In this document: piece after piece, positions 19,566 through 39,433 of the stretch
How positions within the stretch are numbered: the first letter of the stretch is position 1
Layout: every line of letters starts with the position of its first letter
NCBI RefSeq assembly: GCF_016464705.1
Contig: NZ_JAEHOB010000008.1
Span: forward strand, 124,001-188,000
Source: Qaidamihabitans albus
Lineage (GTDB): Bacteria; Actinomycetota; Actinomycetes; Mycobacteriales; Pseudonocardiaceae
Direction of reading: 5' to 3'
Length of the DNA: 64,000 nucleotides
Made by a program: the position numbers and the translations under genes
Notes under the pieces: model-generated
Database searches by the model: none
The model's input: the letters and a program-made list of their open reading frames with translations, nothing else
Told to the model about the DNA's origin: nothing

Positions 19566-19642
19566 TAATCCGGTGTTCACGGCACCGCTTATTTTGACTT
19601 GGGAATGCGAATGGTCAAGAGCTGGTCGGTGATTGTTGTGTC

Positions 19643-34085: not shown

Positions 34086-34274
34086 TCAGCTCTTGCCGCC
34101 GGATGCGCGGGCGTACCGGTCGACGTGGCTCGCGTAGGCGTCGCCGAGCCTGCGGAGCACTCCGAGGCCCGCGCGCAGGTCGAGCAGGAGGTTGCCGGAG
34201 CCGTGCCGGGTCACCCGGCCGAGTACGGCCAGCACGGTCATCATGAGGAGGAGGAAAAGCACGGTCGCTGTCAT
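34086..34274 (-). CDS. Small single-span membrane protein, hypothetical
   Basis: A possible 62-residue protein: an N-terminal membrane helix (TATVLFLLLMMTVLAVLG) followed by a basic tail (GNLLLDLRAGLGVLRRLGDAYASHVDRYARASG). It ends 43 bp upstream of the SARP start and could be in the same transcript. Its ATG overlaps, on the opposite strand, a candidate ATG of the GT-C gene, so one of the two starts must be wrong. No family recognised. Confidence 0.42.
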   Translation of the reverse strand: MTATVLFLLLMMTVLAVLGRVTRHGSGNLLLDLRAGLGVLRRLGDAYASHVDRYARASGGKS

Positions 34275-34311
34275 GGCATCGAGTGTTGCCGGTGCCGCTG
34301 ACGATCGGCTG

Positions 34312-36057
34312 ATGCTCGCCGGAGGGGAAGGATTGGCTGAGCACAGGAGCGTTGAGCACAGGAGCGTTGAGCACAGGAGCGCTGAGCAGAGGAGCACTGC
34401 CCTGCGTCCGCCAGGGCTCGGCGCCGTCACCGCCGTTCTCGGCGCGACGGCGCTGATCGGCTGGCACGGGTCCCGGTTCGGCAACTGGATCGTCGACGAT
34501 GCCGCGATCACGTTCGCCTACGCCCGCAGCATCGCCGAGGGGCACGGCCCCGTGCTCCAGCCCGGCGCGGAACCGAGCGAGGGCTTCTCCAACCCGTCCT
34601 GGCTCCTGCTGCTCACCCTCGGCCGCCTGCTCGGCCTGTTCGACCACGGGAGGATCCTGGGTGTTCCCGACTACGTGGTCTTTCCGAAGGCGCTCGCGCT
34701 GGTGTGCTGTGCCGGGATCGTGGCCGCCTGCCACTACGCGGCGGCGCGGGTCACCAGCAGGCCGGCGGTGGTGACCTTCGTCGCCGGCGTGCTGCTCGCG
34801 GCCAACCCGTCCTTCGTGATCTGGAGCTTCTCCGGCCTGGAGAACGCTCTCTTCGCGCTGGCCGTGACCTGGCTGGCCGTGGTGCTGTTCCGCGCGGCCG
34901 TGGACGGGCGCCTCGCGGCGCCGGGCATCGCGGTGATCGCCGGAGCGCTCGCCGCGCTGGCCGCGCTCACCAGGCCCGACGGCCTGATCTATGCGCTGGC
35001 GTACCCGCTTGCGCTGCTGGTGCTGGGCGAGCGTGCGACTCTCGGTGCGAGCGCGCGGTCGGCGCTGCTGTCCTCGATCGCCTTCGCCTTCCCGGTCGGC
35101 GGTTACCTCGGCTGGCGATACCTCGAGTTCGGTCACCTGCTGTCGTTGCCGGCGGTCGCCAAGAACCAGGAGCTGCCCGAGTTCGCCGACCTGGCTCGCA
35201 GCGGGGAGCTCGTCGAGTACGTCGGCGCGCCCGCCGGGATCGCCTTCGCGGTGCTCGTCGGCCTGGTGCTGTCCCGGCCGTCGGCGGCGCGTACCGGAAT
35301 GATCCCGCTGCTGGTGACCGGGCTGCTGGCCGTGGGCGCCTATGCCATGCTCAAACCGGACTGGATGGGGGAGCTTCGCTTCGCGACCCCGGTCTGGGCG
35401 CTCGGCGCGCCTGCCGGCGCGCTCGCGGGGGCGGCCGCCCTGCGGCAGGTGGGGATCCGCGGCCGCGTGGTGCTCAGCGCGATCCTGGCCGTCGCGCTCG
35501 CCCTGTCCGGCACCCTCTTCGCGTCCGCTTCGGAGAAGTTCCGCGCCGCGCCGACAGTGCCGATGTGCGTCGTCGCCGAGCGGTTCGGCCGCGCCTTCAA
35601 CGGTTATGCCGACATCGCCGGGATCGAGCGCGGCTCGTTGCTGCTTCCCGACGTCGGCGCCACGGCACTGATCAGCCGGTTGCGCGTGGTCGACCTGGCA
35701 GGGCTCACCGAACCCAGGATCGCGGAGTTCTGGTCGAACCGGCAGTGGACCGCGCTGCGCGACCACGTCTACGACGAGCTGCGGCCGACATTCATCCATG
35801 CCCACGGCGTGTGGGGCGGGCGCACCGGAATCGTGCGGGACCCCCGGCTGGACCGGGACTACGCGCTGATCCGGTCGACGTCGGAGGGCAGCGGTGACTG
35901 GGTGCGCAGGGATGCCGTATCCGGTCCGGCGGAGCTGGCCGAGCTGCGAGCCTATGCGCGGGACGAGGTGGCCAGAGCCACGGCGGCGGCGCATGGGGCG
36001 TCGCTCGGTCACTGTGGACCCACGCTTCGGCCGGGGCAGCTCCCCACGGGTGGGTGA
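34312..36057 (+). CDS. GT-C type membrane glycosyltransferase
   Basis: A protein of about 581 residues with some ten membrane helices. The first periplasmic loop has WIVDDAAITFAYARSIAEGHGPV then PSEGFSNPSWLLLL, the Asp-Asp catalytic motif of GT-C enzymes that use polyprenyl-phosphate sugars, as in mycobacterial arabinofuranosyltransferase AftB. The C-terminal third is a soluble extracytoplasmic domain. It may decorate cell-wall arabinogalactan or lipoglycan. The start is uncertain: ATG 34312 is taken; ATG 34273 is longer, and TTG 34333 has the only good ribosome site (GGAGGGG). The N-terminus is spanned by a 15-bp tandem repeat giving EHRSV-type pentapeptides. Confidence 0.75.
   Translation: MLAGGEGLAEHRSVEHRSVEHRSAEQRSTALRPPGLGAVTAVLGATALIGWHGSRFGNWIVDDAAITFAYARSIAEGHGPVLQPGAEPSEGFSNPSWLLLLTLGRLLGLFDHGRILGVPDYVVFPKALALVCCAGIVAACHYAAARVTSRPAVVTFVAGVLLAANPSFVIWSFSGLENALFALAVTWLAVVLFRAAVDGRLAAPGIAVIAGALAALAALTRPDGLIYALAYPLALLVLGERATLGASARSALLSSIAFAFPVGGYLGWRYLEFGHLLSLPAVAKNQELPEFADLARSGELVEYVGAPAGIAFAVLVGLVLSRPSAARTGMIPLLVTGLLAVGAYAMLKPDWMGELRFATPVWALGAPAGALAGAAALRQVGIRGRVVLSAILAVALALSGTLFASASEKFRAAPTVPMCVVAERFGRAFNGYADIAGIERGSLLLPDVGATALISRLRVVDLAGLTEPRIAEFWSNRQWTALRDHVYDELRPTFIHAHGVWGGRTGIVRDPRLDRDYALIRSTSEGSGDWVRRDAVSGPAELAELRAYARDEVARATAAAHGASLGHCGPTLRPGQLPTGG
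34338..34397 (+). repeat. 15-bp tandem repeat, four units
   Basis: Four units of TGAGCACAGGAGCGT, the first two identical and the last two diverging (34338-34352, 34353-34367, 34368-34382, 34383-34397). Read in the GT-C frame they encode EHRSV, EHRSV, EHRSA and EQRST. Length change would be in frame. Confidence 0.85.
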
Positions 36058-36086
36058 CGGCTAGCGTATTTCTACACTTTCTTAAC

Positions 36087-36115
36087 TTCACAACATCCTG
36101 AAAGACCTGTACATT
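36087..36115 (+). promoter_or_regulatory. Sigma-70-type promoter of the exporter leader
   Basis: -35 TTCACA (36087-36092), a 17-bp spacer, and -10 TACATT (36110-36115), 7 nt before the ATG of a 36-codon ORF. This is the best promoter match in the window and lies in an unusually AT-rich stretch. Confidence 0.7.
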
Positions 36116-36122
36116 CCGGGAC

Positions 36123-36233
36123 ATGACGATCACGCCGCTCACCGCTGCCAGGGGCCTGCCCCTGGACCGGGTTGGCCGCCTGTCGTCGTCGCACGCGGGG
36201 GCACGCAAGGCGGACTCCGATCCACCGCGATAG
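36123..36233 (+). CDS. Putative leader peptide of ABC exporter operon
   Basis: A 36-residue ORF (MTITPLTAARGLPLDRVGRL, then SSSHAGARKADSDPPR) that starts 7 nt after the -10 hexamer of a strong promoter, so it would be translated from a leaderless mRNA. It contains a 7-bp stem (36148-36154 with 36159-36165) and ends 137 bp before the exporter ATPase gene, with a stronger hairpin between. It resembles no protein family; the layout is that of a leader peptide whose stalled translation would open the downstream genes. Confidence 0.5.
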   Translation: MTITPLTAARGLPLDRVGRLSSSHAGARKADSDPPR

Positions 36234-36241
36234 GTAGCCCT

Positions 36242-36273
36242 GCCCACCGGACCGTGCGCCGTGTCCGGTGGGC
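36242..36273 (+). promoter_or_regulatory. Attenuator-like hairpin before ABC exporter
   Basis: GCCCACCGGAC (36242-36252) and GTCCGGTGGGC (36263-36273) form a perfect 11-bp stem with a 10-nt loop, 9 nt after the leader peptide stop. A second smaller stem, GCGTGC-TCC-GCACGC, follows near 36300. No U tract, so the end could be Rho-dependent or the hairpin may act on translation. Confidence 0.5.
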
Positions 36274-36369
36274 ACCACCTCGTGAAGCGGTCCTGTCGGC
36301 GCGTGCTCCGCACGCATCGCCGGCGCCGCGTATCCGCCCCTGTCACACGATGAAGACGAGGAATCCGCC

Positions 36370-37311
36370 ATGCCTGAACCAGCCGAACTCCGGGCCGGGG
36401 ACACCGCGATCGAGGTGTCCGGCCTGAACAAGTCCTTCGGCGCCACCAAGGCGCTCGACCAGCTCGACCTGAACGTGCGCACGGGTGAGGTGCACGGCTT
36501 TCTCGGCCCGAACGGGGCGGGCAAGTCGACGACCATCCGGGTGCTCCTCGGCCTGCTGCGGGCCGACTCGGGCCGCGCGACCGTGCTCGGTGGCCACCCG
36601 TGGCACGACGCGGTCGCCCTGCACCGCAGGCTCGCCTATGTGCCGGGCGACGTGAACCTGTGGCCAACCCTCACCGGCGGCGAGGCGATCGACCTCTTCG
36701 CCCGGCTGCGCGGTGGTTTCGACCGCCGCAGGCGCAACGAGTTGTGCGAACGGTTCGACCTCGACCCGACGAAGAAGGGCCGTACCTACTCGAAGGGCAA
36801 CCGGCAGAAGGTGGCGATCGTCGCCGCGCTCGCGTCCGATGTGGAGCTACTGATCCTGGACGAGCCCACGGCGGGACTCGACCCGCTGATGGAGACGATC
36901 TTCGCCGAGTGCATCCGCGAGGTGAAGGGCGCCGGCCGCACGGTGCTGCTCTCCAGCCACATCCTGGCGCAGGTGGAGGCACTCGGTGACCGTGTCTCGA
37001 TCATCCGGCAGGGACACATCGTGGAGTCGGGCACGCTGTCCGAGCTGCGGCATCTGACCCGCACATCGGTGGAGGCGGAGACGCACCGTTCCGCCGACGG
37101 GGTGCGCGACCTGCCGGGCGTGCACAACGTGGCGGTCAGCAACGGCAAGGTTCACTTCGATGTGGACACCGAGCACCTGGACACCGCCGTCGGGCACCTG
37201 CACGGCCTTGGCATCCGCTCGCTGGTGAGCCAGCCGCCGACGCTGGAGCAGCTGTTCATGCGCCACTACGGCGAGGAGCTGGCCGAGGCGACGAACGGAC
37301 GTGGCCGGTGA
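36370..37311 (+). CDS. ABC exporter ATPase (drug-resistance type)
   Basis: A 313-residue ATPase. Walker [10 protein letters not shown], the signature-equivalent [16 protein letters not shown], Walker [14 protein letters not shown] and the H-loop SSHILAQVE are present, and a C-terminal ~80-residue extension ([20 protein letters not shown]) is as in ATPases paired with large actinomycete drug-export permeases. The YSKGNRQK form of the signature is characteristic of this subgroup. It overlaps the next gene by 4 nt. The leader ORF and hairpin upstream suggest induction by translation inhibition. Confidence 0.92.
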
Positions 37312-38957
37312 GCACCACGACCATGCCGCGGGCCGCACCGAAGATGTCCACCCGCCGCGACGATCTCGCCGGCACCGCGACGTTGATCCGGTTCATGCTG
37401 CGCCGGGACCGTGTCCGTATCCCGGTATGGCTCGCCGCGCTGACGCTGGGCACGGTCGCCACCGCCCAGAGCTTCGGGGACCTGTACCCGGACGCGGCGG
37501 CCCGGCAGGCCGCCGCCCAGTCGATGAACTCCCCGGCCGGGCTCGCGATGACGGGCCCCAGCCACTACCTGCAGGACTACAACTTCGGCTCGATGCTGAG
37601 CCACCAGATGCTCGGCTTCCTGGGTGTCCTGGTGGGCCTGATGAGCGTGCTGCTGCTCGTGCGGCACAGCAGGGCCGAGGAGGAGACCGGACGGGCCGAG
37701 CTCGTCCGCGCGAGCATCGTCGGGCGGCACGCCCACATGACGGCCGCCCTGAGCGTGGTGGCGGGGACCAACATCCTGCTGGCCGTGCTGCTCACGCTCG
37801 GCCTCGGTGGTCTCGGGGTCGAGGGGATCACGTGGAGCGGGTCGCTGCTCTACGGTGCCGCGCACGCGATGATGGGGCTGGTGTTCGCCGGGGTCGCCGC
37901 GGTGACCGTGCAGATCACCGAGCACTCCCGCGGCGCGGCGGGGCTCGGCCTCGCGGCGATCGGCGTCGCCTACGTGCTGCGCGCCTCGGGTGACGTGGGC
38001 AACGAGGCGATCTCGTGGCTCTCGCCGATCGGCTGGGCGCAACGGACCTACGCCTATGTGGACAACCGCTGGTGGCCACTGCTGCTCGGGCTGGCGCTCG
38101 CGGCGGTGCTCGTCGTCGCCGGGTTCGAGCTGAGCACCCGGCGCGACGTCGGTTCCGGTCTGCGGCAGTCGCGGCCCGGCAAGGCGGCGGCGTCCGACGT
38201 GCTGGCCCACCCGATCGGGCTGGCGCTGCGGCTGCACCGCGGCCTGCTGATCGGGTTCGGCGTCGCGATGCTGCTGCTCGGTGCCTCCTACGGCTCGATC
38301 ATCGGCGACGCGGAGGAGATGCTCGGCAGCGTCGACGTCCTCAACGAAGCCCTCGCGGAGATCGGTGGCGCGAGCATCGCCGAGTCCTTCGCCTCGATGG
38401 TCATGGTCGTGATGGTCATCGTCGCCTCGATCTACGTGGTGATGGCCGCACTACGACCCCGTTCCGAGGAGACCGCAGGCAGGGCCGAACCGGTCCTGGC
38501 GACCGCGCTCTCCCGGGGCCGGTGGCTGGGCGGCCACCTGGTCGTCGTGCTGGGCGGCGCCGTGGTGATGGCCCTGCTCCTCGGACTCGGCTTCGGCCTC
38601 AGCGGAGCATCCAGCATGGGCGACACCGGCTTCCTGTGGAACATCCTCGGCGCCGCGCTGGCCTACGTGCCCGCCCTGTGGTTCGTCGCCGGTGTCGCGG
38701 TGGCCCTCTTCGGCTGGCTGCCGCGGGGAGCGGCGCTGGCGTGGGCGCTGCCGGTGTACGGCTTCGTCGTCGGCTACCTCGGCCAGATCCTGCAGTTCCC
38801 GGGATGGATGAACAACCTGTCGCCGTTCGGTCATGTGCCGCAGTTGCCCGCTGACGAGCTGACCTGGACCCCGCTGGTTGTGCTCACCCTGCTGGCCGCG
38901 GCGCTGATCGTGCTCGGCCTGGCGGGGTTCCGGCGGCGCAGCGTCGAGATGACCTGA
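37308..38957 (+). CDS. ABC exporter permease (polyketide antibiotic exporter type)
   Basis: A 549-residue membrane protein with two homologous halves of about six helices each, the fused ABC-2-like arrangement of antibiotic exporters such as those for macrolides or tetronasin. The repeated sequence [20 protein letters not shown] in the first half and [25 protein letters not shown] in the second marks the duplication. It exports drugs or lipids from the inner leaflet; substrate unknown. GTG start, overlapping the ATPase stop. Ends 15 bp before an 18-bp-stem hairpin shared with the convergent PPOX gene. Confidence 0.88.
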
Positions 38958-38968
38958 CGCCGGGCCGC

Positions 38969-39433
38969 TCACGGCTGAGCTTCGACTTCGTCTTCGGCGA
39001 AGTCGAAGCTCAGCCAGCGGTCGGGCCTGCCGGTGAACAGGACGAAGGTGCCGGTCGGATCGGCGGTTTCGGTTTCGGCGAGCTCGCGGGCGACATCTTC
39101 GGGCAGGTAGCGGGTGGCGACGGCGCGGACCTGCTCGGCGGTGGGCGCCCGGTCGGCGCGGACGAGTGTGCATTCGACGGTCACGTACTTGTACGGCGAC
39201 CGTGGTTGCTGGACGCAGAAGCTGAACCCGCCTGCCCGCTCCAGCAGGCGGGTCTTGCGAGCCGTGCGCCCCTCGGTACCGGTGAAGAAGGTGAGGTCAC
39301 CGCCGGGCTGGTAGGCGTACCAGACGGGCACCGTGAGCGGTGGCCGTCCGTTGTCGGCGGCGACGCTGAGCACGCCGGTGTGCGGCTCGGCGAGGAACTG
39401 TTCGCGTTCGGTCGTGGTGAGGGTTCTGGGCAT
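38969..39433 (-). CDS. PPOX-family flavin/F420-binding protein
   Basis: A 154-residue split-barrel protein: EREQFLAEPHTGVLSVAADNGRPPLTVPVWYAYQPGGDL is the classic PPOX N-terminus, followed by GFSFCVQQPRSPYKYVTVECTL. Actinobacterial members are often F420-dependent reductases or heme oxygenase-like; not resolvable here. ATG 39433 follows GGAAGG. Its last 14 codons (LSFDFAEDEVEAQP) form one perfect hairpin at the DNA level, so the terminator is built into the coding sequence. Confidence 0.85.
   Translation of the reverse strand: MPRTLTTTEREQFLAEPHTGVLSVAADNGRPPLTVPVWYAYQPGGDLTFFTGTEGRTARKTRLLERAGGFSFCVQQPRSPYKYVTVECTLVRADRAPTAEQVRAVATRYLPEDVARELAETETADPTGTFVLFTGRPDRWLSFDFAEDEVEAQP
38973..39015. 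terminator. 18-bp-stem hairpin inside PPOX 3' end
   Basis: Arms 38973-38990 (GGCTGAGCTTCGACTTCG) and 38998-39015 are perfect inverted repeats with the loop TCTTCGG. The hairpin lies between the exporter operon and the convergent PPOX gene and is translated as the PPOX C-terminus. Confidence 0.7.

Follow-up and report, generated by a model that had tools for sequence, protein, structure and literature searches.

A leader ORF with a conserved Asp-Pro-Pro motif at a predicted leaderless start precedes a multidrug-type ABC exporter in Qaidamihabitans albus

The stretch of DNA analysed here, referred to as the window, comprises 64,000 nucleotides of the Qaidamihabitans albus genome. A promoter and then a short leader ORF separate a membrane-protein-like ORF (34192-36057), which had no Pfam match, from a two-gene ABC exporter. 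The features of promoter, leader and exporter are all on the plus strand. The exporter ATPase (36370-37311) is a DrrA-like orthologue of Rv1218c and matched PDB chain 8k1n_E with an E value of 1.8e-114; its match to the DrrA model TIGR01188 had an E value of 1.1e-56, yet was below the cut-off of the model. A Shine-Dalgarno (SD)-like GAGGA is located at 36358-36362. The permease (549 aa, 37308-38957), whose start overlaps the ATPase stop, is an orthologue of Rv1217c. It showed no match in Pfam or NCBIfam at E <= 0.001 and matched PDB chain 8k1m_B (E 3.5e-98) over residues 1-546 of both proteins. Rv1217c and Rv1218c constitute the multidrug efflux system of PDB entries 8k1m-8k1p. The initial annotation described the exporter as one of the drug-resistance kind, and the near full-length match of both subunits to this system suggests that it is of the multidrug type. 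Downstream, the permease gene converges with a PPOX-type oxidoreductase gene, and the interval between their ends holds a perfect inverted repeat of 18 bp (38973-39015; loop of 7 nt), perhaps a two-way terminator.

The promoter consists of TTCACA (36087-36092), a 17-nt spacer and TACATT (36110-36115), a -10 hexamer whose position is conserved in the surveyed loci; an ATG follows after 7 nt, at 36123. The -35 hexamer is included in an operator-like palindrome, TTCACAACATCCTGAA (36087-36102; family consensus TTCACAAnnTTGTGAA), the right half of which is worn in the window, with 12 of 16 positions matching the consensus. A consensus scan alone rates the promoter as weak, with one found in 8 kb against 0.4 expected. 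It had been claimed as the best promoter of the window; the promoter is present, but it is only joint best, as two sites in the 64 kb on both strands reached 9 of 12 consensus matches, the other being on the minus strand near 19618. We count the promoter as real because of the comparison with related loci, 53 of 63 of which have the operator-promoter and a start codon 6-8 nt past the -10 hexamer. A T-rich block (TT..tta.c; capitals at >=80%) just 5' of the -35 box was conserved across the 54 loci with an operator. Such a block upstream of the -35 box recalls WhiB7-type promoters.

The ATG at 36123 opens a leader ORF of 36 codons and a TAG stop (36231-36233), MTITPLTAARGLPLDRVGRLSSSHAGARKADSDPPR (36123-36233), which is predicted to be leaderless. 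The 36-codon ORF reported at this distance from the promoter is thus confirmed as an observation, and it is strengthened by comparison. We found leader-type ORFs at the same place and with the same C-terminal motif in 15 loci, the window included, from five genera, all of the Pseudonocardiaceae. A search of 390 genomes of the family with the single leader gave matches in 14 genomes at E <= 0.01, of which 10 were short ORFs at the leader place and 4 were other, longer frames. A profile of seven leaders matched at least 160 of the 390 genomes at E <= 0.1 and 13 at E <= 1.3e-6; among the matches listed, the next (E 2.6e-4) lay in a 564-aa frame. All 13 leaders found with the profile precede an exporter ATPase. 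Two more divergent leaders (G643 and G644) were found by a survey of position, so divergent leaders can escape sequence queries. In 396 genomes of the phylum, the single-sequence query gave four matches outside the family, all in frames of 127-695 aa, and in 298 genomes of the order, family members included, no profile match outside the family was better than 3.6e-4. Among the weak loci outside the family, the operator-like palindrome was found in none of six inspected and an ATPase of this kind in none of ten. The leader had no match up to E 1 in the plasmid collection.

The exporter ATPase follows the leader in all 15 loci. Seven proteins of the window were sought in nine other leader loci; the ATPase and the permease were found in all nine and the five neighbours in none. 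Compared with the window, the ATPase is 85% and the permease 58% identical in G019, and the corresponding values in G799 are 86% and 82%, a difference that may reflect an exchange of exporter halves in G019.

The 15 leaders share the C-terminal motif [RG]-L-[SY]-[ST]-..-[AT]-G-[AE]-R-x-A-[DH]-[STP]-D-P-P. The N-terminal half of the peptides is variable, and likeness begins at about position 18. From there, 10 loci read R-L-[SY]-S-S-x-A-G-[AE]-R-x-A-D-S-D-P-P, three read G-L-Y-S-S-R-A-G-A-R-T-A-D-P-D-P-P, and two read R-L-S-T-A-T-G-A-R-T-A-H-T-D-P-P. The leaders of G643 and G644 carry RLSTATGARTAHTDPP. At the nucleotide level, the window, G490 and the six g294 leaders with ADSDPP share an identical stretch of 14 nt (GCGGACTCCGATCC). 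In the window, the conserved core obtained from the alignment and the peptides of all 15 loci is RLSSSHAGARKADSDPP (36177-36227), and it ends at the second Pro of Asp-Pro-Pro (DPP; 36219-36227), the proposed pause site. Every one of the 15 leaders has the consecutive prolines at a conserved position close to the C-terminus, and neither RAPP nor RGPP occurs in any of them. Conservation ends at the second Pro, which is followed by R, VR, RL, RR, TAG or AAG and the stop, or by a long tail. The stop lies within three residues of DPP in 12 of the 15 leaders; G503, G498 and G496 have no stop near DPP and carry tails of 18, 37 and 32 residues, which differ in length and mostly in sequence, those of G503 and G498 having one short stretch in common. 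Conservation that stops at DPP, with little regard for the sequence beyond, is expected if the ribosome pauses there.

We examined the 16-codon core by pooling pairs from 11 of the 15 sequences; two near-duplicates and two sequences with a one-residue gap were left out, and the pairs are not independent. In frame, pS was 0.46 and pN 0.10. In each of the two other frames of the same core, pS was 0.10 and pN 0.25. These results indicate that the leader ORF encodes a selected peptide, silent changes per site being more than four times as frequent as replacements. The check on relatives suggested in the initial annotation therefore found the leader conserved in 15 loci, and the lack of conservation that was to count against the proposal was not seen. 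The ORF has sequence features of a regulatory leader, as it is short, lies between promoter and exporter, and encodes a conserved peptide under codon-level selection.

We then compared 63 loci of related ATPases. These comprised the 30 best of 46 matching genomes (one locus each) in a search of 60 genomes of relatives, 11 loci from the leader searches, 20 picked from a search of the family in which 261 of 386 genomes matched, a second ATPase copy in the genome of Q. albus itself (L161), and G501. In 38 loci, the ATPase itself starts 6-8 nt past the operator-promoter (TTCACAA-NN-TTGTGAA over the -35 box), a leaderless-type arrangement. A separate leader ORF starts at that place, 7-8 nt past the -10 hexamer, in 15 loci. 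Such an operator is lacking in nine, and G501 has the operator and no start at the right distance. The part of the survey that involved no hand-picking (30 loci) contained 24 leaderless loci, two leader loci (the window and G019) and four without the operator. The distance expected of a leaderless start is found in 15 of 15 leader loci and 38 of 38 leaderless-ATPase loci. The leader thus occupies the promoter-proximal, leaderless-type start that most of the surveyed relatives use for the ATPase. Since 38 of 63 loci have a leaderless ATPase, and since G501 has no recognisable leader although its ATPase lies inside a leader-bearing clade (clade B, below), the leader is dispensable for the exporter as such.

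A divergent gene of the MarR type (Pfam MarR_2, E 3e-8 and 3e-9 in two examples) lies beside the operator in 50 of the 54 loci that have one, against none of the nine operator-less loci. It adjoins all 38 leaderless loci, 11 of the 15 leader loci, and G501. Because the MarR gene tracks the operator across the loci, the palindrome is most likely the operator of a MarR-type protein. The four leader loci without an adjacent MarR gene are the window, G490, G643 and G644, the last two inspected over more than 1.1 kb upstream of the operator, and all four have retained the leader. Two relatives of the MarR regulator are encoded elsewhere in the Q. albus genome, one of them beside the leaderless ATPase copy. 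The MarR type of the adjacent regulator in relatives of the window differs from the mycobacterial system, and RaaS (Rv1219c) has been described as a regulator of efflux pumps in mycobacteria (PMC4155686).

A tree of 68 ATPases was rooted at its midpoint, and 15 rows of neither the leader nor the leaderless kind were left uncounted. The leader-bearing ATPases formed two separate clades. Clade A contains the window, G019, G799, G490, G643 and G644, and clade B contains nine g294 rows with G501 inside; the support was 100/99 for each. Given the starred branches, the leader and leaderless rows require two or more changes of state, and none of 200 bootstrap trees could be explained by one. The branch uniting clade A with operator-less rows had a support of 80/73. 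The leader peptides of the two clades are alike despite the separation of their ATPases. Either the leader moved between exporters together with its promoter, or it is old and has often been lost.

The initial annotation had also reported two stems and read the locus as ribosome-mediated attenuation. The 7-bp stem with a 4-nt loop inside the leader ORF (36148-36154 / 36159-36165) exists and is present in the fold; among 13 folded leader loci, G490 has a like stem at a like place. The stem behind the stop codon also exists with its 10-nt loop; however, it is a perfect stem of 12 bp preceded by seven unpaired bases (36241-36252 / 36263-36274), rather than one of 11 bp starting 9 nt after the stop. 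Against shuffled sequences, it had a z score of -2.38, with 4 of 200 shuffles as good, and in a second run -2.97, with none of 60. No T run follows it, and a terminator scan behind it (36274) found none. Rfam had no match up to E 1 over 35800-36600. The stems could belong to an attenuator of the BmrB or Erm type, in which a drug-bound ribosome that stalls in the leader would change the pairing among three stems (36148-36165, 36241-36274, 36287-36329) and thereby free transcription or translation of the exporter. BmrB/BmrCD is described as such a system (PMC4191407), and the post-leader stem of the window is stronger than its shuffles. G490 resembles the window in having an internal stem, a strong post-leader hairpin and no adjacent MarR gene; as these are two cases, we take the coincidence as a hint and not as a result.

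The initial annotation proposed that the stems be sought in relatives, where they were not conserved. A post-leader hairpin with z below -2.9 was found in two of the 15 leader loci, the window (-2.97) and G490 (-2.95), and the values in the other 13 ranged from -2.23 to +1.03. In four g294 loci, the stop codon is covered by a small stem (z -1.2 to -2.2). No consensus structure was found for the leader ORFs (11 rows; z -2.1; of 12 pairs, 4 vary on both sides and 9 are disrupted in at least one row) or for the clade B subset (5 rows; z -1.15). A structure in the clade A spacer (5 rows, z -9) was discarded because the shuffled energies were near zero, the alignment was mostly gaps, and 11 of 13 pairs were broken in some row. 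We also considered release of the SD by a stalled ribosome, as a GGACTCC in the g294 leaders faces a GGAGTC at the ATPase SD, and rejected it, since folding and masking in 13 loci gave no consistent opening. When a ribosome was simulated at DPP in these loci, the mean accessibility of the SD changed by -0.15 to +0.09. Over the stretch that runs from the SD to the start codon, the change lay between -0.12 and +0.10, and the greatest increase, from 0.30 to 0.40, occurred in the window. With the hairpins of the window absent from most leader loci, an inconsistent opening of the SD, and neither a terminator nor a common structure found, we regard the hairpin attenuator of the window as unlikely. 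Of the ribosome-mediated attenuation proposed initially, what stands is a selected leader ORF at a leaderless-type position before the exporter; the stems as conserved parts of a switch found no support.

The spacer between leader and exporter varied in length. Leader stop and ATPase start are 118-198 nt apart in all six loci of clade A and 41-45 nt apart in six g294 loci. For the three loci with tails, the values are 67, -4 and 192 nt, so that the 15 loci span -4 to 198 nt; in G498, the end of the leader overlaps the beginning of the ATPase gene. A C-rich spacer that would be friendly to Rho was considered and set aside, because C >= G held in 15 of 15 spacers, but C > G also held in 8 of 15 leader ORFs, which makes the C-richness uninformative.

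Codon-level selection fits action in cis and in trans alike, and the peptide could be a functional small protein that acts on the exporter or its regulator or is exported. The constant presence of the ATPase behind the leader fits this explanation. However, the C-terminal end is fixed and the N-terminal half variable, the reverse of most exported modified peptides. Three homologues have differing C-terminal tails, and of the seven window proteins sought only the ATPase and permease recur. We therefore consider a small protein improbable. A passive leader, left behind when the exporter start moved downstream and kept for leaderless loading or translational coupling whatever its sequence, would sit where leaderless ATPases start and would suit the overlap in G498, but it is likewise improbable given the purifying selection that acts on the peptide in both exporter clades and the distance of 118-198 nt in all six clade A loci, which is long for coupling.

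We favour an arrest-type leader peptide that is read from leaderless RNA, pauses the ribosome at DPP and gates the exporter, and consider this explanation probable. The leader cistron would be translated from a start that is the predicted first base of the RNA, and the nascent chain ending in D-P-P would slow the ribosome when the second Pro is added. Depending on whether the ribosome stays or leaves, more or less mRNA would extend into the Rv1217c/Rv1218c-type exporter or be translated there. The exporter ATPase itself starts downstream of the leader, in the window behind an SD. DPP is a diprolyl arrest motif relieved by EF-P (PMC6544042). A pause encoded by the peptide is preferred to a particular pair of stems because the conserved part is the C-terminal half ending at DPP. 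As the output step, transcription read-through between leader and exporter would be favoured over SD release, in view of the negative tests of SD accessibility and structure. Read-through between a leader and the genes downstream is the step controlled in BmrB and in TnaC. From this evidence, we infer the transcription start at 36123, the translation of the leader, the pausing at DPP and the control of the exporter. The inducing signal may be a ribosome-binding drug, by analogy with BmrB, or the capacity of EF-P or of diproline synthesis; a substrate of the exporter is also a candidate. Several observations count against the arrest-type leader peptide. The Arg stands seven residues before the last Pro, unlike the well-described R-[AG]-P-P arrest sequence, and arrest at DPP is relieved by EF-P (PMC6544042). 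A TnaC-like stall at the stop codon would call for a stop close to DPP, and G503, G498 and G496 lack one there. No RNA element common to the leader loci was found, strong post-leader hairpins occur in two of the 15, and the distance to the ATPase varies widely. The exporter also occurs with no leader in 38 of the 63 surveyed loci, and with no recognisable one in G501.

Translation-sensing leader peptides are best known from SD-led mRNAs of Bacillota and Pseudomonadota. Polycysteine leaderless short ORFs of mycobacteria are reportedly cysteine-responsive and attenuate the genes downstream (Canestrari 2020). The leader described here resembles them as a leaderless short ORF of Actinomycetota and differs in that its peptide contains no Cys and ends in DPP. 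The closest functional precedent is the BmrB leader of Bacillus subtilis, likewise a short ORF directly 5' of a multidrug ABC exporter, the translation of which is needed for efficient and drug-induced expression of BmrCD (PMC4191407). In BmrB, a terminator lies within the ORF, and the 5'-UTR carries possible ribosome-binding sites (PMC4191407), whereas the Qaidamihabitans leader has no terminator that could be found, a leaderless-type start and a DPP end; the comparison is one of described features. RAPP/RGPP arrest peptides (R-[AG]-P-P), many of them with export signals, precede sec, copper, TonB and other genes (PMC12992588). They too are encoded by short upstream ORFs, which also occur in Actinomycetota, and carry a diproline close to the C-terminus (PMC12992588, PMC10951233). 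Our leaders end in [DH]-[STP]-D-P-P, for which reason we do not class them as RAPP peptides, and they stand before a drug-type exporter; the term "ABC transporter" does not occur in the main text of PMC12992588. In the open PMC literature, we found no paper on this leader-peptide family, and none on an exporter of this kind preceded by a leaderless leader; sequences inside figures would escape such a search. The locus thus combines known kinds, namely an exporter leader as in BmrB, leaderless regulatory short ORFs, and diproline arrest in upstream ORFs.

Taken together, selection, position and phylogeny point to a leader peptide that is translated from leaderless RNA ahead of a multidrug-type exporter and whose diproline end differs from that of RAPP peptides. 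More tentatively, the leaders could represent a new arrest-peptide family (ADxDPP) on a mobile, leaderless promoter-leader cassette that was placed more than once on Rv1218c-type exporters; DPP pausing would tie expression to translation inhibitors or EF-P capacity, and in some lineages the cassette would have outlived the local MarR repressor. If ribosomes pause at the leader, the system would provide a test of leaderless initiation combined with nascent-chain pausing, and of how a drug pump of Actinomycetota is kept off. The related genera offer a clean evolutionary comparison of one promoter with and without a leader.

Three loci showed further peculiarities. The second ATPase copy of Q. 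albus (L161, C1:511500-517500) is about 63% identical to that of the window and has a leaderless-type GTG start, the operator and an adjoining MarR gene; the window permease had no match at E 1e-8 in the 6 kb around it. In G501 (L184), a 26-codon GTG ORF starts directly past a -10-like TACGCT. Its last residues are Gly-Pro-Pro, and its stop codon overlaps the beginning of the ATPase gene; a second palindrome, TTCACATGGTTGTGAA, lies nearby. In G035 (L027), the ATPase has a leaderless-type GTG start, and an in-frame ATG behind GGAGAG follows 13 codons on, so a double start is possible.
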